64,000 nt of DNA from Halostella limicola (GTDB lineage: Archaea; Halobacteriota; Halobacteria; Halobacteriales; Natronoarchaeaceae). The position numbers and the translations under genes are program-made. Below, one piece after another: positions 3,730 to 23,782 of this stretch. The DNA is taken from contig NZ_RCDI01000001.1 in assembly GCF_003675875.1 (NCBI RefSeq), positions 558,001-622,000 on the forward strand, in the 5' to 3' direction. Position 1 is the first letter of the stretch. Each line of letters begins with the position of its first letter. Below the pieces are notes generated by a model. The model ran no database searches. It was not told the DNA's origin and saw nothing but the letters and a program-made list of their open reading frames with translations.

Positions 3730-5682
3730 TCACCGCCCCGGTCGACCGGGAACCTCGTCGGCCGGCACCCGTCCGCGCAACACGAAGGTGTCCCACGCAG
3801 CGGCGACCGGGAGGTCGATCAGGGCACCGTCGTCATCCCGGTAGTCGTAGTACCCCTCGTCGGGATCGAACCCACCGAACACGCGGAGGTCCGGTTCCTC
3901 AGTGTCCGCGAGCGCGGCGAGGTCGTCGCGGTCGAAGATCACCCGCAGTGCGCCTGCCTCCCCGCGGCCGCGGATCCCCTGTGCCTCCGCGTGGTCCCCG
4001 GTGCGCGTGACCGCGTAGAAGGTGCCGTCGGCCGGCCCCTCCACGGCAGCCGGCAACTCGAGGAAGACGCTGATGCGGTCACGATCCGCGGTCACTTGTC
4101 GGGCGTCCGTCCGCGCATCGACACGCAGGATGCGGTGCTCGACGCTGGGTGAGACCGTCCCCTTCGCCTCGAGCATGTCGAGCGTGATGGGCCCCTGTGG
4201 CCCGTCGGATTCGTGGACGACGTCGGCGTCTGCGAGCTCGTCGAACCCGGCGACGTAGCTGTTCGTCGTGAACGTATAGGTCGTGTCGGGGTCGAGCGGC
4301 TCGCCCTGTACGTAGACGGCCTCGACCTGCCCGTCCCCGTCGTGGCCCGACCACTCGTACTGGACGCCGCCTACCTGGACGGACTGCTGTGCGCCGAAGG
4401 TCGACCACGGGAGCGCCGCAATCTGGCTCTCGAGGAGGGCCTGCAGGGTGCGTCCCTTGACCTCCATCGTGACGATGGTGTTGGGGAACGGAAGGATGTC
4501 GAGCCACTCTAGCCCGGTGATACCGCCGGGGCCGTACACCTGGTTCGAGCGGATCCCGCCGGCGTTCTGGAGCGCAGCGTCGACCTCGTCCACGCCCGGG
4601 GCGTTGGCCTCGGCGTACTCCATCATGAGGTCACAGATCAGGTTCCCCAGCGCGCTCTCCTTGGCGTAGTTGGTGTCGAACCTGGCGTCGAGCGTGACGT
4701 CGGTGGTGAAGTACTCCCGTCCCAGTTCGGCCTCGAGCTGGTCCCGCCACGTCGAGACGATGGAGGCCATCCCGTCGTCGGGCTCGAGCGCGGCGACGTC
4801 GGGATCGTGTCGCTGCCAGTCGACGAGGTCCCCGTCCACAGTGAGCGTGAGCTCGCCGAGGTGGTCGAACTCGTCGCCGACCTCACTGATGACGGTCCCC
4901 GCGTGAACCTCCGGCTCGTCCATCGTGACCTCCGAATGCGAGCCGACGATGGCGTCCAGGTCGTCGACTGCCTCCGCGATCTCGTAGTGGGTCGAGTGGT
5001 TGGTGTGGGAGGCGAGGACGACGACGTCCGCTCCGGCGTCCTTGAGCGCGGCCGTCGCTGCCTCGCTCGCCGTGACCGGGTCGATGGCCTGGTAGTCCGC
5101 CGGATAGTCGGTGATGTCGTAGAAGTTCCGGACGCCGCTCCCGAAGACGCCGAGCGTGACCCCGCCGACGTCGCGGGTGATCCACGGTTCCGTTCCCGGG
5201 ATCGGGTCGCCGTCGGGTGTGCGGAGGTTGGCGACCACCCAGGGAAACGTGCTGTCCGCGAACCGCTCCGTGGCGACGTCGATCCCGAAATCGAACTCGT
5301 GGTTGCCGACACCCACCGCCAGCGGGTCGAGGTAGTTGAGCGCCTCGACCATATGCTCGCCTTCGTGGATGAGGCCCATGATCGACGGCGCAAGGTCGTC
5401 GCCGATGCCGAGGAACACCGCGTTCTCTCGGGCGCTACGCAAGTCGTCGATGAGCGTCTGGTATCGGGCGATGTCCATGGCCCTGTCATCGGTCGGGTCC
5501 CCGAAGCGACCGTGGAAGTGACTATCGTGGAGGATGGTCACCGTCTCGGCCGACTGTGCGGCGACCGTTCCACCCTGTGCGACGCCGAGGCCGCCGGCAG
5601 CAAGCCCTCCGGCCGTCGCTGAGAGGACGTTCCGTCGTGTGATCGACTCCTGCGTGTCTAATGAATCATCACTGTCTGGCAT
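3730..5682 (-). CDS. Tat-exported 5'-nucleotidase / UshA-family metallophosphoesterase
   Basis: A 650-aa protein. The Tat signal is SITRRNVLSATAGG (Arg16-Arg17) followed by AAQSAET. The metallophosphoesterase domain shows the ordered metal motifs D-x-H (HDSHFHGR, residues 52-59), GD (GIGDDLA, about 92-98), GNHEFD (126-131), and the later LASHTNHSTH and GSHSEV histidines. The 5'-nucleotidase C-terminal substrate domain follows, with NAGGIR and LPFPNTIVTMEVKG. An extra C-terminal stretch of about 110 residues after HRILRVDA is unusual. Family members hydrolyse nucleotides or related phosphoesters outside the cell. The upstream region carries a TATA-like element and an inverted repeat. A second UshA-type gene lies at 12423-14516. 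Confidence 0.85.
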   Translation of the reverse strand: MPDSDDSLDTQESITRRNVLSATAGGLAAGGLGVAQGGTVAAQSAETVTILHDSHFHGRFGDPTDDRAMDIARYQTLIDDLRSARENAVFLGIGDDLAPSIMGLIHEGEHMVEALNYLDPLAVGVGNHEFDFGIDVATERFADSTFPWVVANLRTPDGDPIPGTEPWITRDVGGVTLGVFGSGVRNFYDITDYPADYQAIDPVTASEAATAALKDAGADVVVLASHTNHSTHYEIAEAVDDLDAIVGSHSEVTMDEPEVHAGTVISEVGDEFDHLGELTLTVDGDLVDWQRHDPDVAALEPDDGMASIVSTWRDQLEAELGREYFTTDVTLDARFDTNYAKESALGNLICDLMMEYAEANAPGVDEVDAALQNAGGIRSNQVYGPGGITGLEWLDILPFPNTIVTMEVKGRTLQALLESQIAALPWSTFGAQQSVQVGGVQYEWSGHDGDGQVEAVYVQGEPLDPDTTYTFTTNSYVAGFDELADADVVHESDGPQGPITLDMLEAKGTVSPSVEHRILRVDARTDARQVTADRDRISVFLELPAAVEGPADGTFYAVTRTGDHAEAQGIRGRGEAGALRVIFDRDDLAALADTEEPDLRVFGGFDPDEGYYDYRDDDGALIDLPVAAAWDTFVLRGRVPADEVPGRPGR

Positions 5683-5722
5683 ACCGTTCTGAGCGTCAAC
5701 ACAGTGGTATGTTAATGTAAGG

Positions 5723-5730
5723 GAATAAAA
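5723..5730 (-). promoter_or_regulatory. TATA-like element for the 5'-nucleotidase gene
   Basis: On the minus strand the sequence reads TTTTATTC about 42-48 nt before the ATG at 5682. The spacing predicts transcription starting near 5700 and a short leader, as is common in haloarchaea. Assignment is by sequence and position only. Confidence 0.4.
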
Positions 5731-5741
5731 TGTACAACAAA

Positions 5742-5764
5742 ACTACTAGAATTACAAAAGTAGT
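5742..5764. promoter_or_regulatory. inverted repeat ACTACT-N11-AGTAGT, operator candidate
   Basis: Two perfect 6-nt half-sites, ACTACT (5742-5747) and AGTAGT (5759-5764), are 11 nt apart. They lie immediately upstream of the TATA-like element of the 5'-nucleotidase gene. A dimeric regulator could bind here. The regulator is unknown. Confidence 0.4.
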
Positions 5765-6017
5765 ATAATTAACAGGCAATCAGATGGATCCAATTCAACA
5801 CTATGTCGGTAGTCTCCGGCGTGCGACCCAAAACACCTCTCAGCGACAGAGACGGGGCCAGACGCAGACTCCGCGACATGTGGGACCTCTCGTGGGGATG
5901 TATTCGCTGATTATGGAAATATGAGTCTCATAAATATTCCGTATAAACAGCGTAAATTCAGCCGAATAGGGATAAGTGGTTGATTCTTAATACTGACACT
6001 ACTGACGTGTCTCGAAG

Positions 6018-7703
6018 ATGACGCACAACTACAACCGCCGCGCGGTGCTGAAAGGGGCCGGTGCGGCCCTCGGCATCGCAGGTGGCCTTCGGCTCGGAAC
6101 AGGGAGTGCGGTCGCGCGCACGTCCCCCGAACTGGACAAATACGTCCAACCCCTGCCGATCCCGGACGTGCGAGCGCCCGACGGCCGACGACAGGGCGCC
6201 GACTATCACGAGATCCCTCTCACGGAGTTCACGGCACAACTCCACCCCGATCTGCCGGAAACCACGCTCTGGGGATACGACGGCCAATACCCCGGGCCGA
6301 TCATCCGCGCACGCCGGAACGAACGTATCAAGGTGCAGTTCGGCAACGGTGCGCTCCCCTCGGAGCATCTCCTGAGCGTCGACGAGCGCATCGCTGGCAC
6401 GACCCCCGACGACTACCCCGAGTTCGACGGGCCCGTGCCGGAGGTCCGGACGGTGACGCATTTCCACGGGCTCAACGTCGACCCCGAAAACGACGGTCAG
6501 GCCGAGATGTGGACGTCGCCGGACGGGGTGACGGGCCCGCGATTCGCCACGCACGTCCACGACATCCCGAACCGCCAGTCCAGGCTGACGTCGTCGTATC
6601 ACGACCACGCCCTGGGCATCAGTCGTCTCAACCTCTACGCCGGGCTGGTCGGCTTCTATTTCATCCGAAGTCGCGCCGAGGACCGCCTGGACCTGCCCAG
6701 CGGCGAGTACGATATCCCACTCATGCTCCACGACCGGTCGTTCAACGAGGACGGGTCGTTGCACTATCCGGACTCGTTCGAAGCGAACGTCGCCGGTGAT
6801 ACGGCCGTCATCAACGGGGCCGTCTGGCCGTATCTGGAAGTGGAGCCCCGCCGCTACCGACTTCGGTTCGTGAACACGTCGAACGGACGGACGTACAACA
6901 TGCGCCTCGACAACGACGCCGGCACGGCCGTCCCCACGCTGTATCAGGTCGCTGCCGGCCACGGCTTCCTCGAGCGAGTCGTCCCGATCGGCCCGGACGG
7001 CGACCTCGACTCCCTGTTGCTCTCCCCGTTCGAACGCGGGGACGTCATCGTCGACTTTTCCGACCACGCGGGCGAGACGTTCACCGTCACCAACGACGCC
7101 GAGTTCCCGTTCGAGGGCCACACCGAAGGCGCCGACCTCGACGAACTCATGCAGATCCAGGTGGCCGAGTCGAGCAGTGGCCGAGACACCAGCACGCACC
7201 CGTCGGACCTGACCCTCCCGTCGTCGGGTGGCCCCGACGAGCGGAGTGCGACGGAGACCCGGCAGATGACCATGAGTATGACGATGGACGACCATGGGCT
7301 CTCGACACATCTGCTCAACGGCCGACGGTTCACCGAGGAGACACAGATCAAACCCCAGCTCGGAACGACAGAGGTCTGGGAGCTCCAGAACGAGACCCAC
7401 CACACGCATCCGATCCACCTCCACCTGGTCGAGTTCAGCGTGATCGGCCGCGGCCCGGACGGCACCGAGGCGCCCGCCCCGAACGAGCGCGTGGGGAAAG
7501 ACGTCGTCCGCGTCAATCCCGACGAGACGGTTCGCATCGCGGCCAAATTCGGCGACTTCACCGGGCAGTACCCCTGGCACTGTCACATCCTCGAACACGA
7601 GGACCACAAGATGATGCGGCCCTTCGAGGTGGTGTCGGGCAGTGCGGAGAGAAACGGTGAGAAGTCCAAGAGACATCAGAACGATCCGGATACTGACGAC
7701 TGA
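6018..7703 (+). CDS. Tat-exported multicopper oxidase (CotA/bilirubin oxidase type)
   Basis: A 561-aa protein with a Tat signal at its start (NYNRRAVLKGAG, Arg7-Arg8). All four copper-ligand motifs of multicopper oxidases are present: HFHG (148-151), YHDH (194-197), HPIHLH (464-469) and HCHILEHE (521-528). The three-cupredoxin arrangement and length fit the CotA / bilirubin oxidase / PcoA-like group. Such enzymes take electrons from phenols, metals or bilirubin at a type-1 copper and reduce O2 to water at a trinuclear cluster. A Met-rich stretch (MTMSMTMDDHG, near residues 417-427) resembles copper- or substrate-binding loops. A 1.7-kb open frame on the opposite strand is only a composition shadow. 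It is followed by three LVIVD proteins on the same strand. Confidence 0.92.
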   Translation: MTHNYNRRAVLKGAGAALGIAGGLRLGTGSAVARTSPELDKYVQPLPIPDVRAPDGRRQGADYHEIPLTEFTAQLHPDLPETTLWGYDGQYPGPIIRARRNERIKVQFGNGALPSEHLLSVDERIAGTTPDDYPEFDGPVPEVRTVTHFHGLNVDPENDGQAEMWTSPDGVTGPRFATHVHDIPNRQSRLTSSYHDHALGISRLNLYAGLVGFYFIRSRAEDRLDLPSGEYDIPLMLHDRSFNEDGSLHYPDSFEANVAGDTAVINGAVWPYLEVEPRRYRLRFVNTSNGRTYNMRLDNDAGTAVPTLYQVAAGHGFLERVVPIGPDGDLDSLLLSPFERGDVIVDFSDHAGETFTVTNDAEFPFEGHTEGADLDELMQIQVAESSSGRDTSTHPSDLTLPSSGGPDERSATETRQMTMSMTMDDHGLSTHLLNGRRFTEETQIKPQLGTTEVWELQNETHHTHPIHLHLVEFSVIGRGPDGTEAPAPNERVGKDVVRVNPDETVRIAAKFGDFTGQYPWHCHILEHEDHKMMRPFEVVSGSAERNGEKSKRHQNDPDTDD

Positions 7704-8301
7704 GGGAGCGTTCGTTCCCATCGTGTATCCGGTCTGCGGCAGTGGGGAACGAATATCTCATCGAAGAACGCCGCTGACGAGCCAATTGGATGTACGACAC
7801 CCCGCGTGGGAGGGAGGCGGACGAGCGCGACAACGCCGATAGCAACCACGCCATAGTCTCTACCGATGAATGTTCCATGGCCCGGTACGTCAGAGCAGTG
7901 ATCCTGTGACCTCTCTCTGTAGCGGCTGAACACTGATAATCTCAAATCACAGTAGACAGTAGCTCTCTCACAGAAATACGTACCTCTCTTCTTCCAATTC
8001 ATTCTGTTCTCCAGAAGTAGATCCGAGTAATCCAAAGGAACCGCGGAAAATAGGCTCTTTCCCGGACTCTATTATCCACCGTCATGACAGGTAATTAGAT
8101 ACTTCGGAATCTTTCAGGATTATCTTAGTACAATTCTATCCTGTGATTTTCCGGGTCCCACCCCTATGATTAACATATAAAATATAGTATCTATAGTAGC
8201 AGGCGCTGATGGCAAACACTACTACTTCATCGCTGCCATTCATGTCTCTAACTACCGATTTACTATGATACACATCAACGAATGCGAAGACGGATCGTCC
8301 A
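7704..8301. other. gene-free stretch of about 600 nt
   Basis: This spacer lies between the multicopper oxidase and the first LVIVD gene. The left half is GC-rich with no believable frame. The right half becomes AT-rich and contains TA-rich words (ATATAAAATATAG near 8178-8190, GATTTACTATG near 8259-8269). The latter lies about 35-40 nt before the ATG at 8302 and could be the promoter of the LVIVD genes. Confidence 0.45.
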
Positions 8302-9579
8302 ATGAAGCCCACACGACGCACGCTGCTCAAAGCACTTGGCAGCACGGCCGCGATCGGTAGCATCGGAACGGCAGCCGCACGCGAAACACCACCGAAAGGA
8401 CGGATCAGGAACCTCGGCCACTCCCTGCTCTCGGACCCGCCCGGGGGGTACACCGAGGGCGACGTACGCGACGATGGACAGTACGCCCTCACGGGGAGCT
8501 TCTACGGGACAGGGGGTAGCTTCCTCGTCGACATCAGTAACCCGACCGACCCCAGGGAGGCCCACCGCGTCCCCTCGTCTGAGAACGTTCGCAACGCAGA
8601 CGTGAAGTTCGGCCGTCGGGACGGCCTCTACTACCGGACGCAGGAAGCGAACAATGACGGTGCAGAGCTCGACGGTGTCGAGATCATCGACTACGGCTAC
8701 GCCGAGGGGTCACCCGAGGATCCGACCATCCTGGGGTCGCTCGACGCGGGGGAGACGCACAACCTCTTCCCGCATCCCACCGAGCCGTACGTCTACACCA
8801 CTGAACACCACGGAATGGGTGTCTTCGACGTGAGCGACCCCACCGACACCTCGTTCGTCGGGACGTTCGGCCCCGAAGCCGACCTCCACGACGTCGTCGT
8901 CGATCCTGAGAACGATCTCGCCCACCTCGCGTTCATCGGCGGCGGCTTCGACGGCTACGTCATCATGGACGTGAGCGACCCCGCGAACCCGGAAGAGGCC
9001 GGGCGTTTCAGCTACGAGGGGCTCCCCTCCTACGAGGACGTCCCGCTCGGCGAGGAAGGCTTCCAGAACTGCCACTACGCCAACTACGACCCCGACCGGG
9101 ATATCGCGGTCGTCGGCGACGAGATCGGATTCGGGAAGCCCGGCGGCAAGCACATCTTCGATATCGGCTGGGGTGACGGCTCCGTTGCGGACCCCAAGCC
9201 CATCGGGTACACGCCGTCACCGAACGCGCAGGTGATGGACGAACTTCCGGAATTGTACGACTGGACGACACACAATCACGATATCATCTCGAAAGGGAAC
9301 AACTCCCTGCTCGTCGACGGGGCGTACCACGAAGGGATGGTCGTCTGGGACATCAGTGACCCGACCGATCCCACGTTCACCGACCGCTACGCGACCGACG
9401 ACCAGGCCGACCAAGCGAATAGTCCGAGTTGGATCGGCGAGGCGCCGATGGCGTGGGGCGCGAACTACAACAAACAACGCGACCTCACCGTCGTCTCCGA
9501 CATGGCCACCGGCGTCTACGTGTTCAAGGTCACGCCGTCCGCCGGAAACGGTGGCAACGGTGGAAACGGAGGGCGGTGA
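8302..9579 (+). CDS. Tat-exported LVIVD-repeat beta-propeller protein (first of three)
   Basis: A 425-aa protein with a Tat signal (MKPTRRTLLKALG) and a cleavage-like AAARE. LVIVD-type repeats of the form V-D-(V/I)-S-(D/N)-P-x-(D/N)-P occur near residues 73-84, 173-183, 217-227 and 346-357. This is the pattern of a secreted beta-propeller. The C-terminus is a Gly/Asn repeat (GNGGNGGNGG). LVIVD proteins are extracellular or surface proteins of uncertain function. This is the most divergent of the three neighbours: it lacks the WRNPNRPE block shared by the next two. It ends 2 nt before the next start and is probably cotranscribed with it. Confidence 0.85.
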   Translation: MKPTRRTLLKALGSTAAIGSIGTAAARETPPKGRIRNLGHSLLSDPPGGYTEGDVRDDGQYALTGSFYGTGGSFLVDISNPTDPREAHRVPSSENVRNADVKFGRRDGLYYRTQEANNDGAELDGVEIIDYGYAEGSPEDPTILGSLDAGETHNLFPHPTEPYVYTTEHHGMGVFDVSDPTDTSFVGTFGPEADLHDVVVDPENDLAHLAFIGGGFDGYVIMDVSDPANPEEAGRFSYEGLPSYEDVPLGEEGFQNCHYANYDPDRDIAVVGDEIGFGKPGGKHIFDIGWGDGSVADPKPIGYTPSPNAQVMDELPELYDWTTHNHDIISKGNNSLLVDGAYHEGMVVWDISDPTDPTFTDRYATDDQADQANSPSWIGEAPMAWGANYNKQRDLTVVSDMATGVYVFKVTPSAGNGGNGGNGGR

Positions 9580-12422: not shown

Positions 12423-14516
12423 CTACTGAGTCGGGAGCCGCAACGATGCGGCACCGGACGTATCGCTGTCGAGTTCCGTGATGCGACCCTCCACGGCCGG
12501 TGCGATCGGGGACTCCGCGGCAATGCTGTCGACGATCAGCTGCGCGAGCAGCGGCCCGCCGTTCTCGTCGATGAGCCGTTCGGCGTCTGTGAGCATTTCG
12601 TATCCGTCGCCGCCGCCCGCGACGAAGTTGTTCGTCGCCAGCGTGTAGGTCGCGCTGTCGTCCAGCGACTCGCCGCCGATGGTCACGTCGACGATGCGGT
12701 TTCCGGCGTCCGCGTCCGGATCCCACGTGTACGACAGTCCGCCGACCTGCGGGAACCTGCCGGCGAGGTCTTCGACACGGCTGACGCCGTTCTCGAGCGC
12801 CGCCCGGATGGCCGCTCCCGTCACGCGTAATTTGACCACCGTGTTCCCGAACGGGAGAACGTTGAACACCAGAAGCTTCGAGACGTCGGCTGGCGATTCG
12901 GGGCTGGCGTCGGGGAAGTAGCGCGTGTCCGTCCGGATGCCGCCACCGTTCATGAGGGCCGCGTCGGCGTCAGCGAACTCGCGCATCTTGTCCGCGATGT
13001 AGTTCCCCGTATTGGCTTCCTCAGTCCGAACCACTGCCTCACGCGTGTCTAACGGCACTTCCGTCGTACCGATGACCTCGTCGAGGTCTTCGAGACGAGA
13101 CTCGTATTCTTCTTTGATCTCTGCGACGGCCGGGTCGGGCTCAAGCCCGTCCTCGACCGCTGCGGTGAGATCGTGGAGCGTGAAGTCGTGGTCCGACACC
13201 TCGCCCGCCTCGACGTCGAGTGTGAGTTCGCCGACGAACTCGAACTGATCCCCGACGGCCGAAAAGACGGTCCCGTTGATGACCTTCGGTTCCTCGAAGA
13301 CCTGCGCAGCGTGGTCGCCGACGACGGCGTCGATAGCGACGTCGTCGAGGTCAGCCAGAACGTCCTCCATGACTGGACTCGACAGATGCGAGAGGACGAC
13401 GACGACGTCGGCGCCGTCCGCACGCATCTGCGGGACGACCTCGCGGAGCGCTGGCTTGACGTCCTGAACGGTCGCGTTCTCGCCGAGGTTGGTGATATCG
13501 GGCGCCTCCTCGTTGATGACGCCGGTCACGCCGACCAGAAGGTCGCCGACCTGATCGAGGATGTACCGCCGTGCACCCTGATCTTTCGCGAACACGTCGC
13601 CGGTGCGCTCGTCGAGAAGATTCGCGCTGAGCCAGGTGAACTCGCTGTCGGCGACCCGGTCGCGGGTGATATCTGGCCCGAGGTCGAAGTCGTGGTTACC
13701 GTACGTGTCGTAGCGCAACCCGCCCGCGTTGAATGCGTCGGTCATGTGCTCCCCCTCGAAGAACGATGAAAGGACCGACGAGGCGAGGTCGTCGCCGTTG
13801 CCGACTTTCATCGAGCCGACGTTCTCGGCGTCGAGGCGGTTCATCAACCCGAAGTAGTTGGCGATGTTCTGCTGTTCCTCGAAGGAGTTCTCGAAACGGC
13901 CGTGGAAATGCGTGTCGTGAATGAGCGTCACCTGTCCGTCTTTCTGTTCATCAGGAACGGTTCGGGCGTCCGTCGCCTGCTCGCCGATCTGGCCGCGGAT
14001 CTCACCCGCGGGGTGGGCCTCGGTGTGGACGTTGACGTACGTATTGCCCGCGCGGATGGCATCGACCAGATCCGCAACCGTCCGGCCACTGAACGGACCG
14101 GTCAGGTCGTCGTCGGTGATCGTTCCTTCGGCGAGGACGCCCTGTGTCCGTCCGGTAGTCGAGCCACCGTAGAGGCCGACGATGACCGGGCCGTTCTCGC
14201 CAGCGACCTCGTAGTGGATGTGCGCCGCAACGGCGTCCGTGATGTTGGCGACGGTCAGTTTGTACTGCAGCTCCGACCCGCCCTTTCGTAGTTTGAACGT
14301 TCCTGTGCCGGTGGCCTCCGTATCGACGGGCGGTACTTCCTCGTCGCCGGAACACGAGGCGACGAACGTCTTCCGCTTGTCGTCTCCGTTCTCCTTTCCT
14401 GAGTCTGCTGCAACCGGTCCGGCAGTGAATCCCGTGACGACACCTGTCCCGAGCGCCTTCAGGAACGGACGTCGCGCCTGTGACGGACCGGCTGATTCGG
14501 TCGTTTCATTGCCCAT
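12423..14516 (-). CDS. Tat-exported CHRD domain + 5'-nucleotidase fusion
   Basis: A 697-aa protein. I chose the ATG at 14516 rather than the frame's first start at 14540, because MGNETT leads into the Tat signal QARRPFLKALGTG and the spacing from the TATA box fits. Residues about 48-178 form a CHRD (chordin-type) domain, including VAAHIHYEVAGENGP and the ending AHPAGEIRGQI. A UshA-like part follows. Metal motifs are HDTHFHGR (200-207), GNGDD, GNHDFD and SHLSSP/GDHAAQ. The C-terminal nucleotidase domain has NGGGIR and LPFGNTVVKLRV. It should hydrolyse nucleotides outside the cell. The CHRD part may bind a surface or another protein (inference). It differs from the 3730-5682 enzyme by the added domain and the absence of its C-terminal extension. 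Confidence 0.87.
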   Translation of the reverse strand: MGNETTESAGPSQARRPFLKALGTGVVTGFTAGPVAADSGKENGDDKRKTFVASCSGDEEVPPVDTEATGTGTFKLRKGGSELQYKLTVANITDAVAAHIHYEVAGENGPVIVGLYGGSTTGRTQGVLAEGTITDDDLTGPFSGRTVADLVDAIRAGNTYVNVHTEAHPAGEIRGQIGEQATDARTVPDEQKDGQVTLIHDTHFHGRFENSFEEQQNIANYFGLMNRLDAENVGSMKVGNGDDLASSVLSSFFEGEHMTDAFNAGGLRYDTYGNHDFDLGPDITRDRVADSEFTWLSANLLDERTGDVFAKDQGARRYILDQVGDLLVGVTGVINEEAPDITNLGENATVQDVKPALREVVPQMRADGADVVVVLSHLSSPVMEDVLADLDDVAIDAVVGDHAAQVFEEPKVINGTVFSAVGDQFEFVGELTLDVEAGEVSDHDFTLHDLTAAVEDGLEPDPAVAEIKEEYESRLEDLDEVIGTTEVPLDTREAVVRTEEANTGNYIADKMREFADADAALMNGGGIRTDTRYFPDASPESPADVSKLLVFNVLPFGNTVVKLRVTGAAIRAALENGVSRVEDLAGRFPQVGGLSYTWDPDADAGNRIVDVTIGGESLDDSATYTLATNNFVAGGGDGYEMLTDAERLIDENGGPLLAQLIVDSIAAESPIAPAVEGRITELDSDTSGAASLRLPTQ

Positions 14517-18760: not shown

Positions 18761-19060
18761 ATGACGATCCAGACCGAGAATACGAATAGTGGATCAAGCA
18801 TGACGAGAGCGTCCCATGGGAGCATCTATCCGTGGGACATCCCACGGGGTCGCGCCGATACTGAGCAGGACGTTGCGCGCTGTTACTGTGGGGATTGTGG
18901 ACCGGACGGCATCGCGGCGCCCACCCTCGGGACGAGCGAGACGCTGGCGGCCGCCGCGCTCGGCACCGTGTCCGAGGTGCGCCGGCAGACCCACCGGTTC
19001 TCCCTGCTCAAGGTTGACCCGGTTGCTACGAGTCCGGTGGCGGAGGGGACGCCACCGTGA
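18761..19060 (+). CDS. 99-aa protein of unknown function coupled to an HTH gene
   Basis: A 99-codon frame from the ATG at 18761. It includes a compact Cys cluster (ARCYCGDCGPDG, near residues 38-49) that might bind a metal, and an Ala/Thr-rich helix after it. The stop TGA overlaps the GTG start of the next gene (GTGA at 19057-19060), which supports translation as a coupled pair. I do not recognise the family. The pairing with a coiled-coil/HTH protein suggests a mobile-element or plasmid-type regulatory module. Confidence 0.55.
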   Translation: MTIQTENTNSGSSMTRASHGSIYPWDIPRGRADTEQDVARCYCGDCGPDGIAAPTLGTSETLAAAALGTVSEVRRQTHRFSLLKVDPVATSPVAEGTPP

Positions 19061-19803
19061 CTGATGACGCAGACCTCGAACGCCGCCTCGACGCCGTCGA
19101 GGCAGCCGTCCACGATCTGGAGGAGCAACTGTCGACGGCGACGAACCGCGACATTCCGCTACTGAAAGGTACGGTTCGTACCCTCGTCGCGACCGAGGTC
19201 GACAGTCTTGACGACTTGTCTGAGGCGGGGCGAACGTTCCGCCGACGCTGTGCCGACCGCGAGAAGTGCTTGCAGGCGGTGGAGACGAAGCTCGAAACAC
19301 TCTGCGAGGCGGGGACCGCCGCGTCGACCAAGGCCGAGAAGTACGGCGCGATTCTGGCGTTCGCGCAGAACAAGCGCAACGGCTCTGCCAAGCTCGTCGT
19401 CTCTCCCTCCGAGATCATGAGGTACACCGGCGTCTCCCGGCGCTACGCTTACGACCTGCTGGCAGAGATTTCGGCCGACGTCGACGGCGTCCGCGTCTGG
19501 GAGGCCACGGAAAACCCGACTGGGTCCAACGTGAAACGGAAGGTACTGCTCGTCGACTGTGAACACGTTCACGCGGCGACGAAGGGTATGAACCAGTTCA
19601 CCACGGGAGGTAGGAGGAACGACGAGGAGAGAGCGTGGGAATCGTCGCTGTCTGATGGAGTGGCGACGTCCAGCGGTCGTCGTTGTCTCTGCTGGTTGCC
19701 ACGTAGTGGGGTCGCGTACTGGTGGGTAGTACATCCACTCGCTCGAACTCACTGTGTGAGCGCGGCCGCTGGCGGGGGTCACCTGCCCATGCACCTTTCG
19801 TGA
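19057..19803 (+). CDS. coiled-coil plus HTH protein, 3' end probably altered
   Basis: The frame is 248 aa. It opens with an acidic coiled coil (DADLERRLDAVEAAVHDLEE) and continues helical to about residue 100. An HTH-like segment follows near 112-140 (SPSEIMRYTGVSRRYAYDLL), then a beta-rich VKRKVLLVDCEHVHA. Such coiled-coil/HTH proteins occur next to transposons and plasmid genes in haloarchaea and usually end shortly after a VNQFTT-like motif. Here GMNQFTTGG is followed by about 65 residues of shadow-like sequence (WLPRSG, CVSAAAGG). A 13-bp direct repeat suggests the original end was displaced to 19801-19841. Start is GTG, coupled to the preceding gene. Confidence 0.7.
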   Translation: MTDDADLERRLDAVEAAVHDLEEQLSTATNRDIPLLKGTVRTLVATEVDSLDDLSEAGRTFRRRCADREKCLQAVETKLETLCEAGTAASTKAEKYGAILAFAQNKRNGSAKLVVSPSEIMRYTGVSRRYAYDLLAEISADVDGVRVWEATENPTGSNVKRKVLLVDCEHVHAATKGMNQFTTGGRRNDEERAWESSLSDGVATSSGRRCLCWLPRSGVAYWWVVHPLARTHCVSAAAGGGHLPMHLS

Positions 19804-19995: not shown

Positions 19996-20937
19996 ATGGT
20001 ATCTCCGCCGAATCGTCGACAGTTCCTCACGATCGCTGGCGCAGCAGCGGGGCTCGCCGGGTGTAGTGATGCGAGTGGACGCCAAACGGAGTCCGGCACG
20101 TCAGCGGGATCTCAGGTAACACTCCAAGAGAACAGTGACCCGGTCATACTTGGCGACGGAGCGTCGGGAGTCGATTCGGCAACGGTCGTCGGCCCGAACA
20201 GTACTGGGCCGCCTGACGGCGTCGTCATCGGCGAGGGGATCGACGCGTCCGGGAACGTCGGGTCAACGATCATCGGCCAGGGGAACGAATCAAACGGCAA
20301 CGAGGAAGTCGTCGTCGGGTACGACAACGCTGGAGAGCGCGCAGCCGTGACCGTTGGTTCCGGTGTTTCGAACAAGGAGGAGTCAGTGACGCTCGGCCTC
20401 AATGCAGTCGGAGCGAACCGGAACTCTGTTGCGATCGGCTCCCACGTCAACGAGAATGCTCCCGGGCAAGACGAGAAGTGGCCCGGAATTCGGGTTGCCG
20501 TCGGCTCCCGTGCGGCGGCGAACGTACGTGGCACCGCAGTCGGGCCTGGCGCCGGTGAGTACGGGACGCCAGGAACGAACGTCGTCAACATCGGCAATGA
20601 GGCCTCCGCGTCCGGTGATTACTCGATCGCGATCGGCGACCAGCGGGAGATCGGCACTGAGGGAGACGAAGAAACGATGATCAAACCCGACGCGGATGGG
20701 GCGGTCGCTATTGGCACCGCAGTCGAAGTCGGGACCGCACAGGTGGCGCGTATTGGTACCTCGACCGCGTCGAACCCGGGGCCACGGCAGTTAGTCTGGC
20801 AGGGCGTTGAGCAACTCGCCGACGAGGACTACGTGAACCAGGAGGTGACGCTGCTGATGGACGAGTCAAACGGTCAGTTCGTCATCAAGGGGAAAGATAG
20901 CGACGGCATCATTCAGGAGGCGACAGTCCCATGGTAA
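19996..20937 (+). CDS. Tat lipoprotein with YadA-head-like beta-roll repeats
   Basis: A 313-aa protein with a Tat signal (NRRQFLTIAG) and lipobox LAGC (Cys23), so probably lipid-anchored on the outer face. From about residue 50 to 260 it is made of short repeats with alternating hydrophobics and the pattern (V/A)-x-(I/V)-G-x-x-(A/V), such as SVAIGSHVN, GTAVGPGAG and DYSIAIGDQ. This is the pattern of the left-handed beta-roll of YadA-type trimeric adhesin heads and some viral fibres. A C-terminal part (TLLMDESNGQFVIKGKDSDG) looks like a tip or trimer module. Probably a surface adhesin or fibre. The stop overlaps a 49-aa frame. Confidence 0.75.
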   Translation: MVSPPNRRQFLTIAGAAAGLAGCSDASGRQTESGTSAGSQVTLQENSDPVILGDGASGVDSATVVGPNSTGPPDGVVIGEGIDASGNVGSTIIGQGNESNGNEEVVVGYDNAGERAAVTVGSGVSNKEESVTLGLNAVGANRNSVAIGSHVNENAPGQDEKWPGIRVAVGSRAAANVRGTAVGPGAGEYGTPGTNVVNIGNEASASGDYSIAIGDQREIGTEGDEETMIKPDADGAVAIGTAVEVGTAQVARIGTSTASNPGPRQLVWQGVEQLADEDYVNQEVTLLMDESNGQFVIKGKDSDGIIQEATVPW

Positions 20938-21080
20938 AGGAAGTGACCCTTGAGATCAGTGACGGTCATTACGCATTACTGGAGGTCTTGCACGAGGATC
21001 TTGAGGAGGACGTGGAAGCGGAACTGGCGGCGATCGTCGAATCGTCGATTCATAACACCCACCAGGAGTATTTCCGGTAG
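20931..21080 (+). CDS. 49-aa acidic small protein coupled to the surface lipoprotein
   Basis: The ATG at 20931 overlaps the stop of the lipoprotein gene by 7 nt and the frame ends at the TAG at 21078-21080. The 49-residue product starts VKEVTLEISDGHYALLE and contains a very acidic helix (HEDLEEDVEAELAAIVE). It has no signal or membrane helix, so it should be cytoplasmic. The overlap and good codon use support it. Function is unknown; it may be an accessory to the surface protein or a DNA/RNA-binding small protein. Confidence 0.6.
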   Translation: MVKEVTLEISDGHYALLEVLHEDLEEDVEAELAAIVESSIHNTHQEYFR

Positions 21081-21215: not shown

Positions 21216-21818
21216 ATGGTAGAAAGTAACAAGAACCAAGAGGGGGAGGGCACGCTATCACGAAGAACAATACTGAGAGCGACAGGTGTGGGGGCAGCGG
21301 GAGCCGTTGGGTTAGCAGCCGGTCCGGGTACCGCAGCTGCCAACTGCCCGTGTGAAGGTGTGACGCTCGGGAAGTTAGATTCGGATGAAATTGAAAGTCT
21401 GGAAGAGGGGGAAACTTCCACGTTTGAGCTGACGTTAGATGGTGATCTTCGCATCGCCGATGACCCCGAGTGTCAGAATGACAAAATTGTAGAGGTATTA
21501 GCTAAGCCAACTGAGTTCAAGGGAAATGAGGTGACGTGTGTCGAGTTGGAAATCATTGATGACAATGGCGCCTGCAAATGTGCCGACGACGGCCTGTATC
21601 TCAACGGTGCCGTCGTTAAGGGAGGACCAGAGTTTGCAGAATTTAACTGCGGAGATGTGGATCAAGTAAATCAGAAATATAGCAAACTAGAGGTATGTGC
21701 GCCAATTAACGACAACAACGGGAAACGATATGGGATAAGCAATATCACCATCGAGGTTTGTGTCTTCCCGAATGATAAACAAACTGGAGGCGACTGCGTG
21801 AACGAGGGTGGAGGTTAA
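21216..21818 (+). CDS. Tat-exported Cys-rich protein, function unknown
   Basis: A 200-aa protein with a Tat signal (TLSRRTILRATG, Arg16-Arg17) and a clear AAA cleavage region before Asn43. The mature part contains ten cysteines, including NCPCEG at its start, GACKCADDG near the middle and single Cys residues in beta-like segments toward the end. In a secreted protein these would form disulfides. The fold looks beta-rich and is not one I recognise. Codon use is more AT-rich than in neighbours. It is flanked by two other predicted surface proteins (the beta-roll lipoprotein and the beta-helix protein), each in its own transcription unit. Confidence 0.75.
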   Translation: MVESNKNQEGEGTLSRRTILRATGVGAAGAVGLAAGPGTAAANCPCEGVTLGKLDSDEIESLEEGETSTFELTLDGDLRIADDPECQNDKIVEVLAKPTEFKGNEVTCVELEIIDDNGACKCADDGLYLNGAVVKGGPEFAEFNCGDVDQVNQKYSKLEVCAPINDNNGKRYGISNITIEVCVFPNDKQTGGDCVNEGGG

Positions 21819-22168: not shown

Positions 22169-23782
22169 ATGACAAAGAAGCAGAAATCGGAAAAGCCAGA
22201 AACGTTTGAAGATGAGGACCAAGACGGATTCGAAGAACTGGAAGCTGTCGTCGACGACCGGATCCAAACGTGGTTCGAAAAACAAGACATTGATATCGAG
22301 GATCTGGAGAACGATTCTTCGACGTCGATGGCTCGTCGCGGCGTGTTAGGGATGCTCGGTGGAAGCGTTCTCGGTCTGGGGTTACAGAGTGGTTCGGCAG
22401 CAGCTCAAGGAGAGGTCCGCGAATCCATGTCGGTTGAGGCGACGACCCAAAGCCTACAGGCAGATCAGATCACCACCTCCGACGTCGACGGTATTCGATA
22501 CGCGGAGACGGCAGACGAGATCCAACCGGCTATCGACGAGCTCGCTGAGCCAAACGGTGACGGATCTCGCGGCGGTATCGTCAAACTGGGTGCAAAAGTG
22601 TATAAGCCGGAGACGACGATCTGGCTGAAAGCCGGTGTGACGCTGGAAGGCGTTGAGACAAACCGCCATTTCAATCACCGGAATCATCCTGAGGCCCAAG
22701 CCACTGTCCTGTCGACCGAGAATCTCGGGAGCGAGGCGACGTTCCGACACAACGGCGATCATCCCCACGATCACTATCCCGTCGTTGCGAACTATCGGAC
22801 GCCGCCGATGGAACTCGCGAACCGTGACCCGACCGACGAGGAACTAACGTACTGGGGCCACAATGTCGGGCTGCGGAACATCATCATCGACGCATCGGAA
22901 AAGAAGTATTACAAGTCAGGCTACTTCGGCGCATACGACGCGACGCTCTTCTCGCGGTCGGACAACCTCCGGCTCGAAAACGTCGAAACAAGAAACTTCG
23001 ACGGATACGGCCTCTTCCTCAACGGGTGCCGTGGCGTTCGCGACCTCGGTGGACGGTATGAAGGAGGTGCAACGGACTTCCACTGCAACGCCGTTACACT
23101 GCACACGGCCTACCCCCCGGACCCGACCGTTTACACCACCGGGATCTTTGACCTCGAAGCTGTCGGCCCGGCCCCGACTATGGAAACGTTCACGCATGGG
23201 GTCAAGTTCGTCTCGGGCGGCTGGTCACAAGCGAGGATCGAGGAAACGGAGCCCCGTTTCATCGGGAGCGAAAGTGACTACTACGCGGGGAATGCTCCAC
23301 TCACCAATACGGAAGATTCCACAGCTATCTGGAAGCACGAACACGGCCACGCGGACATGGACGGATACACTATCGAGGGGAAAAATGGGAATGCAGATGG
23401 TGTCTGGTGTCAGTACAACCATGCTAACATCTCTAATACCTCTATCTCGAACGTTCGGTACGGGTATCGGCTCAACGGGATGGTTCCAGCTCGGATTAGT
23501 AACTGCCATTTCTCCAACACTGAGGCCGGTATCTCTTGTGAGACCCACATTCCGAATGTAAATGGACTCACGATCTCAAATTCGGACGCAGGAGTTCTAT
23601 TCAACTCTGGGCGCGCCAATCAGTACGGGACACTTTCAGAGATAATCTTCTCGGACGTCGATTACGGTCTCAAGGGATTCAATTCGAAGCAGGTTGTCGT
23701 TAACAACCCCGACTTCCGTGGCTGTGGGACGGCCGTGGATGTAGAATTCGACGAACTCGAACTCAATAATCCCGTCTACTGA
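22169..23782 (+). CDS. Tat-exported right-handed beta-helix (pectate-lyase-like) protein
   Basis: A 537-aa protein. An unusually long charged N-terminus (about 50 residues, with FEELEAVVDDRIQTW) precedes the Tat signal SMARRGVLGMLGG (Arg56-Arg57). The mature part starts with a segment typical of pectate-lyase superfamily enzymes (DEIQPAIDELA, then GGIVKLGAKVYKPETTI). A series of coils follows with N-x-x-I and turn motifs such as GLRNIIIDAS, LRLENVETRNFDGYGLFL, ISNTSISNVRYGYRL and ISNCHFSNTEAGI. This is a right-handed parallel beta-helix, as in polysaccharide lyases, epimerases and tail spikes. Catalytic residues cannot be assigned. Likely acts on or displays a surface polysaccharide. Confidence 0.78.
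   Translation: MTKKQKSEKPETFEDEDQDGFEELEAVVDDRIQTWFEKQDIDIEDLENDSSTSMARRGVLGMLGGSVLGLGLQSGSAAAQGEVRESMSVEATTQSLQADQITTSDVDGIRYAETADEIQPAIDELAEPNGDGSRGGIVKLGAKVYKPETTIWLKAGVTLEGVETNRHFNHRNHPEAQATVLSTENLGSEATFRHNGDHPHDHYPVVANYRTPPMELANRDPTDEELTYWGHNVGLRNIIIDASEKKYYKSGYFGAYDATLFSRSDNLRLENVETRNFDGYGLFLNGCRGVRDLGGRYEGGATDFHCNAVTLHTAYPPDPTVYTTGIFDLEAVGPAPTMETFTHGVKFVSGGWSQARIEETEPRFIGSESDYYAGNAPLTNTEDSTAIWKHEHGHADMDGYTIEGKNGNADGVWCQYNHANISNTSISNVRYGYRLNGMVPARISNCHFSNTEAGISCETHIPNVNGLTISNSDAGVLFNSGRANQYGTLSEIIFSDVDYGLKGFNSKQVVVNNPDFRGCGTAVDVEFDELELNNPVY

Follow-up and report, generated by a model that had tools for sequence, protein, structure and literature searches.

The window, that is, the whole 64,000-nt stretch of DNA analysed here, is part of a 4.1-Mb genome (G000:C2:558001-622000), haloarchaeal to judge by the protein matches, and contains a gene for a 313-aa protein, the end of which is overlapped by a gene for a 49-aa protein (Table 1). 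Both ORFs had been picked out by a first-pass annotation made from the letters alone, and both are present as it reported. The N-terminus of the 313-aa protein (MVSPPNRRQFLTIAGAAAGLAGC) is composed of an RR motif, a short hydrophobic stretch and the lipobox LAGC, in which Cys23 is the residue predicted to be lipidated. This bears out the Tat signal and lipobox proposed in the first-pass annotation; the matches to the Pfam profiles TAT_signal (Table 1) and LPAM_1 (12.4 bits) both stay under the curated cut-offs, so that export is read from the sequence and is not certified by a profile. The twin-arginine motif, the short hydrophobic stretch and the lipobox cysteine are all shared with haloarchaeal Tat lipoproteins, which we take to be the known kind for comparison with this leader, although the cargo behind it is here a virus-type fibre. 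The ORF is intact and its product acidic.

Table 1. Features of the fibre locus and its immediate neighbours, in window coordinates
Feature	Position	Strand	Basis
Predicted Tat-lipoprotein of 313 aa, containing YadA-head-like beta-roll repeats	19996..20937	+	ORF, ATG start; sequence, Pfam, repeat count
Tat signal and lipobox, residues 1-23 (RRQFL ... LAGC)	19996..20064	+	Sequence; TAT_signal 19.1 bits, sub-threshold
Head region, residues about 48-260, repeats of 13-14 residues	20137..20775	+	Pfam, motif count, family profile against PDB
C-terminal 49-residue domain, residues 265-313 (QLVW...EATVPW), common to halopanivirus provirus spike-locus proteins	20788..20937	+	Leave-one-out profiles
Shine-Dalgarno-like AGGAGG in front of the 49-aa ORF	20915..20920	+	Sequence; ten nt before the ATG
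49-aa acidic protein, predicted helical	20931..21080	+	ORF, ATG start; 7-nt overlap with the fibre gene
Adjacent protein of 200 aa, Tat-type leader (context; link to the fibre gene not implied)	21216..21818	+	ORF list, profile search
Nearby protein of 537 aa; its Tat-type leader is internal, and its match to a pectate-lyase-like beta-helix is sub-threshold (context only)	22169..23782	+	ORF list, Pfam

Behind the leader, YadA-head-like repeats of 13-14 residues span about 200 residues. The motif [VAITL]x[VIL]G matches 15 times in residues 24-270, mostly at a spacing of 13-15, whereas the same count in 5000 shuffles of the protein had a mean of 3.14 and a maximum of 9, in agreement with the repeat pattern described at first sight. 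The YadA_head profile PF05658, with which the first-pass annotation had proposed to check its reading, gave 25.5 bits in the genome search, above the cut-off, and 21.5 bits in hmmscan (cut-off 25). At E<=1, a profile of the five-sequence family introduced below matched 12 distinct sequences in PDB (3e-19 to 0.6), of which BpaC (3e-19) was the best and YadA (1P9H) reached 6e-15; the names given by the depositors denote trimeric autotransporter or related surface proteins. The 313-aa sequence alone (phmmer) found only YadA, at E 0.11. The likeness to the heads of YadA, BpaC, EibD and UspA1 consists of head repeats of about 14 residues and of profile matches to solved structures. In contrast, YadA-type adhesins have an outer-membrane barrel, whereas the window protein, from an archaeal host, has a Tat leader and lipobox, contains no YadA or autotransporter membrane anchor (Pfam, E<=1), as had also been noticed, and ends in a provirus-type domain.

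An AlphaFold monomer model of the 313-aa protein, based on a four-row alignment, shows short strands at regular spacing, at a mean pLDDT of 53. With this low-confidence model as query, Foldseek returned nothing at E<=0.001 from PDB and from viral models, and the 50 matches listed by a second structure aligner were mostly right-handed beta-helices (Z 7-10.6) and did not include a YadA head. A right-handed beta-helix fold was given no weight, because the model is poor and a turn of 13-14 residues is too short for right-handed beta-helices of that kind.

The fibre gene and the 49-aa ORF overlap in the letters ATGGTAA. The tiny acidic protein announced by the first-pass annotation contains 13 D/E against 2 K/R and has no strongly hydrophobic segment and no leader, and its single-sequence prediction is one long helix over residues 11-47 (pLDDT 83). 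A search of 391 haloarchaeal genomes for its counterparts gave matches in nine of them; after seven partial matches (E 0.002-0.01, inside larger open frames) had been set aside from the table of matches alone, one convincing relative was found, a 55-aa protein of G390 with 41% identity over 49 residues. Its E value, 0.005 for one genome, is unpersuasive by itself. In G390, there is a 4-nt overlap between the gene for this relative and the end of a gene with 16-residue VGYxAG repeats (12 motif matches against a shuffle mean of 2.3); the product of the latter gene has no leader of its own and gives a match (1e-8) to a tail-spike family of PHROG. A gene of the 49-aa type thus lies directly behind a fibre-repeat gene in both the window and G390, so that the small protein accompanies two fibre-repeat genes that differ from each other, and the 49-aa protein is a candidate escort in the cytoplasm that would help the fibre to assemble or to be exported. 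The family was not found in IMG/VR. The G390 locus (L041:6938-7941) is located in a polysaccharide-type region with a flippase. It is surrounded there by recurring gene pairs, each for a Tat coiled-coil protein and a PHP-like protein, the latter kind recognised by eye and matching no Pfam family.

A surface-glycan island adjoins the locus (window about 24000-63600) and encodes glycosyltransferases, a flippase, a pyruvyltransferase and five sulfatase-family proteins (PF00884 matches). Searches for Rfam families and tRNAs found nothing. Against the set of halopanivirus proteins tested, the window ORFs gave no meaningful match (the matches, both short, were at E 0.003 and E 0.008), and the small MCP and packaging ATPase of halopaniviruses were not found in the whole genome, in searches run without a positive control. 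The 537-aa beta-helix-like neighbour had no match in the phage collection. Upstream of the fibre gene, at window 18860-19650, lies a decayed-looking gene pair, and the region is variable; a stretch of this pair is 69% identical to G000:C2:537461-538030, which adjoins a CRISPR-associated-like gene (by eye).

With the window protein as query, the 391 haloarchaeal genomes gave one other match, in G031 of the same genus. The YadA_head search, which had matches in ten genomes, or eight once G343 and G348 had been set aside by eye as chance frames, added further members in G159 (two copies) and G349. The family therefore comprises five members in four out of the 391 genomes, the window genome included. 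A profile of the five members had matches in nine of the same genomes, and no additional member was accepted, with G181, G192, G296, G343 and G356 set aside as antisense- or low-complexity-looking frames; scans of genome contigs (queries A1 and A4) found nothing. Among nine genomes of the taxonomic family, a member was found only in the window genome and in G031, where it is proviral. No member was found in an isolated virus: this family had no match in the phage collection (including SH1, PH1 and HCIV-1) or in IMG/VR, and the window protein had none in plasmids; these searches found only generic YadA-like proteins, including four IMG/VR fibres (L013-L016). Such fibres and the phage fibre repeat proteins of PHROG 4636 (a tail-spike family to which the G390 fibre has a match) likewise have short-period repeats, but their C-terminal ends differ from that of the window protein, and no Tat leader was seen in them.

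All four relatives sit in proviruses, three in number, of the Halopanivirales (SH1/SNJ1-type) in other haloarchaea, and all four are without a signal peptide by eye. The G031 provirus encodes a packaging ATPase (69% identity to its counterpart in Natrinema versiforme icosahedral virus 1), a small MCP (58%), a large MCP (42%) and VP9 (36%, all three as identity to halopanivirus proteins), and its fibre gene lies directly 3' of the relative of the VP9 penton. In G349, a VP9 relative (34% identical to SH1 VP9) is followed by one 92-aa ORF and then by the fibre gene, with matches to VP10, VP5 and VP2 upstream. The G159 provirus was recognised by its ATPase (37%) and both MCPs (37% and 32%), and a penton gene was not identified in it. 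VP9 is immediately followed by VP3 and VP6 in the genomes of SH1 and HCIV-1. The relatives of the window protein hence hold, in two proviruses, the gene position of the vertex spikes of Halopanivirales (VP3 and VP6 of SH1 and HCIV-1 and their counterparts in Simuloviridae); no BLAST similarity was detected between the YadA-head proteins and the VP3/VP6-type proteins of SH1, HCIV-1 and HJIV1, so that by position they are a different type of spike. This position, known from proviruses alone, suggests that the proviral relatives are virion spikes. In the literature, the VP9 penton is described as an adaptor for distinct spikes and VP3 and VP6 as being arranged on a horn-shaped spike (PMC6414509), and the spike genes as the least conserved of halopaniviruses, with the spike complexes most likely recognising the host (PMC5332951).

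Some further features of these proviruses deserve mention. A 73-aa gene downstream of the fibre gene in G031 is 67% identical over 52 residues to HJIV1 ORF30; this overlapping gene is of TM type and unrelated to the 49-aa gene, and the idea that the latter comes with the viral module seen in G031 was rejected. The G159 provirus carries two different YadA-head proteins (L042:11453-12115 and 13484-14194), 33% identical over 177 residues, which might be two spike types or tip variants. In the G349 provirus (L043:6526-8526), the YadA-head gene is followed by a gene for a 666-aa Pel9A-like beta-helix protein, which shows no BLASTP similarity to the 537-aa beta-helix-like neighbour in the window.

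The homology between the window protein and the viral proteins covers both the head and the C-terminal domain. When a profile built solely on the four viral members was searched against the 408 window ORFs and 500 shuffles, it found the window protein at E 7e-16, and none of the other ORFs or of the shuffles at E<=0.1. Leave-one-out profiles of the C-terminal 50 residues also found it (E 1.3e-10 with four members and 4.5e-12 with three), and because this non-repetitive C-terminus is homologous by itself, the family homology is no artefact of the repeats. Identity at the C-terminus is 25/49 between the window protein and G031, and 32/50 between G031 and G159a. In an unrooted tree of the five rows, the window protein and G031 are grouped (96/99), with G159a outside and a long window branch (3.72). 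This favours a capture from a virus, a direction that stays unproven with five rows, no root and a long window branch. The window form differs from the halopanivirus vertex spikes by its Tat-lipobox leader and by the lack of a virus around it, and its gene is not a viral or proviral gene near a penton; with no halopanivirus gene found in the window, it is filed as a relative of viral spikes, not as a viral spike. The lipid-anchored, YadA-head-like fibre put forward in the first-pass annotation is thus well supported at the level of sequence, but its closest relatives, which are viral spike-locus proteins, had been missed.

Combined with the above analysis, the window gene somewhat more probably than otherwise encodes a surface fibre that came from a halopanivirus spike module and was re-tethered by a Tat-lipobox leader. 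The source would be a halovirus of the order Halopanivirales, icosahedral and with a membrane, the spike module of which is known from proviruses in forms that lack a signal peptide, whereas the window form has a Tat leader and a lipobox. Folding would take place in the cytoplasm and would probably yield a left-handed beta-roll trimer; the protein would then be exported in the folded state by Tat, lose its leader and become tethered by lipid at Cys23, its C-terminal tip directed outwards just as it would be on a virion vertex. The co-translated 49-aa helical protein would stay in the cytoplasm. Tip and head may bind a surface glycan or an S-layer component of haloarchaea, so that the fibre could act as a cell-cell or self-surface adhesin and possibly also as a cover over the receptor of related viruses. 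In short, the window protein is probably a glycan-binding surface fibre and possibly a receptor mask.

On the one hand, the transfer could have run in the other direction, with a Tat-exported YadA-like surface fibre born in the host and its head and tip, without the leader, later taken by halopaniviruses as a spike. Other Tat-exported beta-roll fibres do occur in haloarchaeal chromosomes (G361, G049 and probably G043), and the five-row tree is unrooted; however, the G361 and G049 fibres belong to another repeat class (the G361 fibre matches one family member, G031, weakly at E 0.002, and the G049 fibre none at E 0.01), four out of the five family members are viral, the sole cellular member groups with a viral one, and the family was found in so few of the 391 genomes, which makes a host origin unlikely in our judgement. 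On the other hand, the gene could be a relic, the last piece of a decayed halopanivirus insertion without a present function, as the variable region with its decayed-looking upstream gene pair and the proviral nature of the only other member among the nine genomes of the taxonomic family would allow. This is very improbable given that the ORF is intact and acidic with a leader seen in none of the viral relatives, that the 49-aa ORF and its AGGAGG are intact as well, and that no other viral gene is recognised nearby. We give hardly any credence to the view that the gene encodes an unrelated glycine-rich repeat protein resembling YadA and the viral proteins by composition only: PF05658 does fall below its cut-off in hmmscan and phmmer reaches YadA at no better than the E value given above, but shuffles match neither the motif count nor the profile score, and the C-terminus is homologous outside the repeats.

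A special case of the re-tethered fibre is superinfection exclusion, in which the lipoprotein would occupy or hide the receptor of halopaniviruses with the same tip. It would be in line with a head and tip family in common with a spike-locus protein of a same-genus provirus, with a tether that probably lies at the end opposite the shared tip, and with adjoining surface-glycan genes that could make the receptor. It is nevertheless doubtful, since no receptor of these viruses is known according to PMC5332951, and since the C-terminus agrees with the nearest viral tip at just 25 out of 49 residues, which makes shared binding uncertain. The most complete version, a domesticated virus fibre whose capsid-binding end was swapped for a Tat-lipobox tether, provided with a small escort and displayed to occupy the receptor, so that the attacker's own spike serves for superinfection exclusion, is likewise assigned a low probability.

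The re-tethered fibre would connect three subjects: folds of the YadA-head type, the spikes at the vertices of icosahedral viruses of archaea, and lipoproteins of the cell surface. Among the matches listed in searches of the literature on YadA in haloarchaea and archaeal viruses, none dealt, by its title and the opening of its abstract, with YadA heads in archaea or halopaniviruses, and none linked these three subjects. The window protein may be a clear case of a viral attachment module re-tethered to the cell through the swap of one N-terminal leader, and a relative of the spike tip that is anchored to a cell would lend itself well to probing for a receptor.

The Tat-exported beta-roll fibres of the second class, located in haloarchaeal chromosomes at L063:7421-8965 (G361), L064:7360-9303 (G049) and L067:about 4278-8305 (G043), have an N-terminal coiled coil, a Tat motif and GGG-type repeats. 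The G361 and G043 fibres end in a Peptidase_S74 tail-fibre chaperone domain. The three loci also encode homologous partner proteins, directly downstream of the fibre in two cases (G361, G043) and close by in the third (G049). The G043 fibre gene is seemingly interrupted by an IS200/IS605-like transposase gene pair (L067:5721-7428), as judged by eye from the translations.
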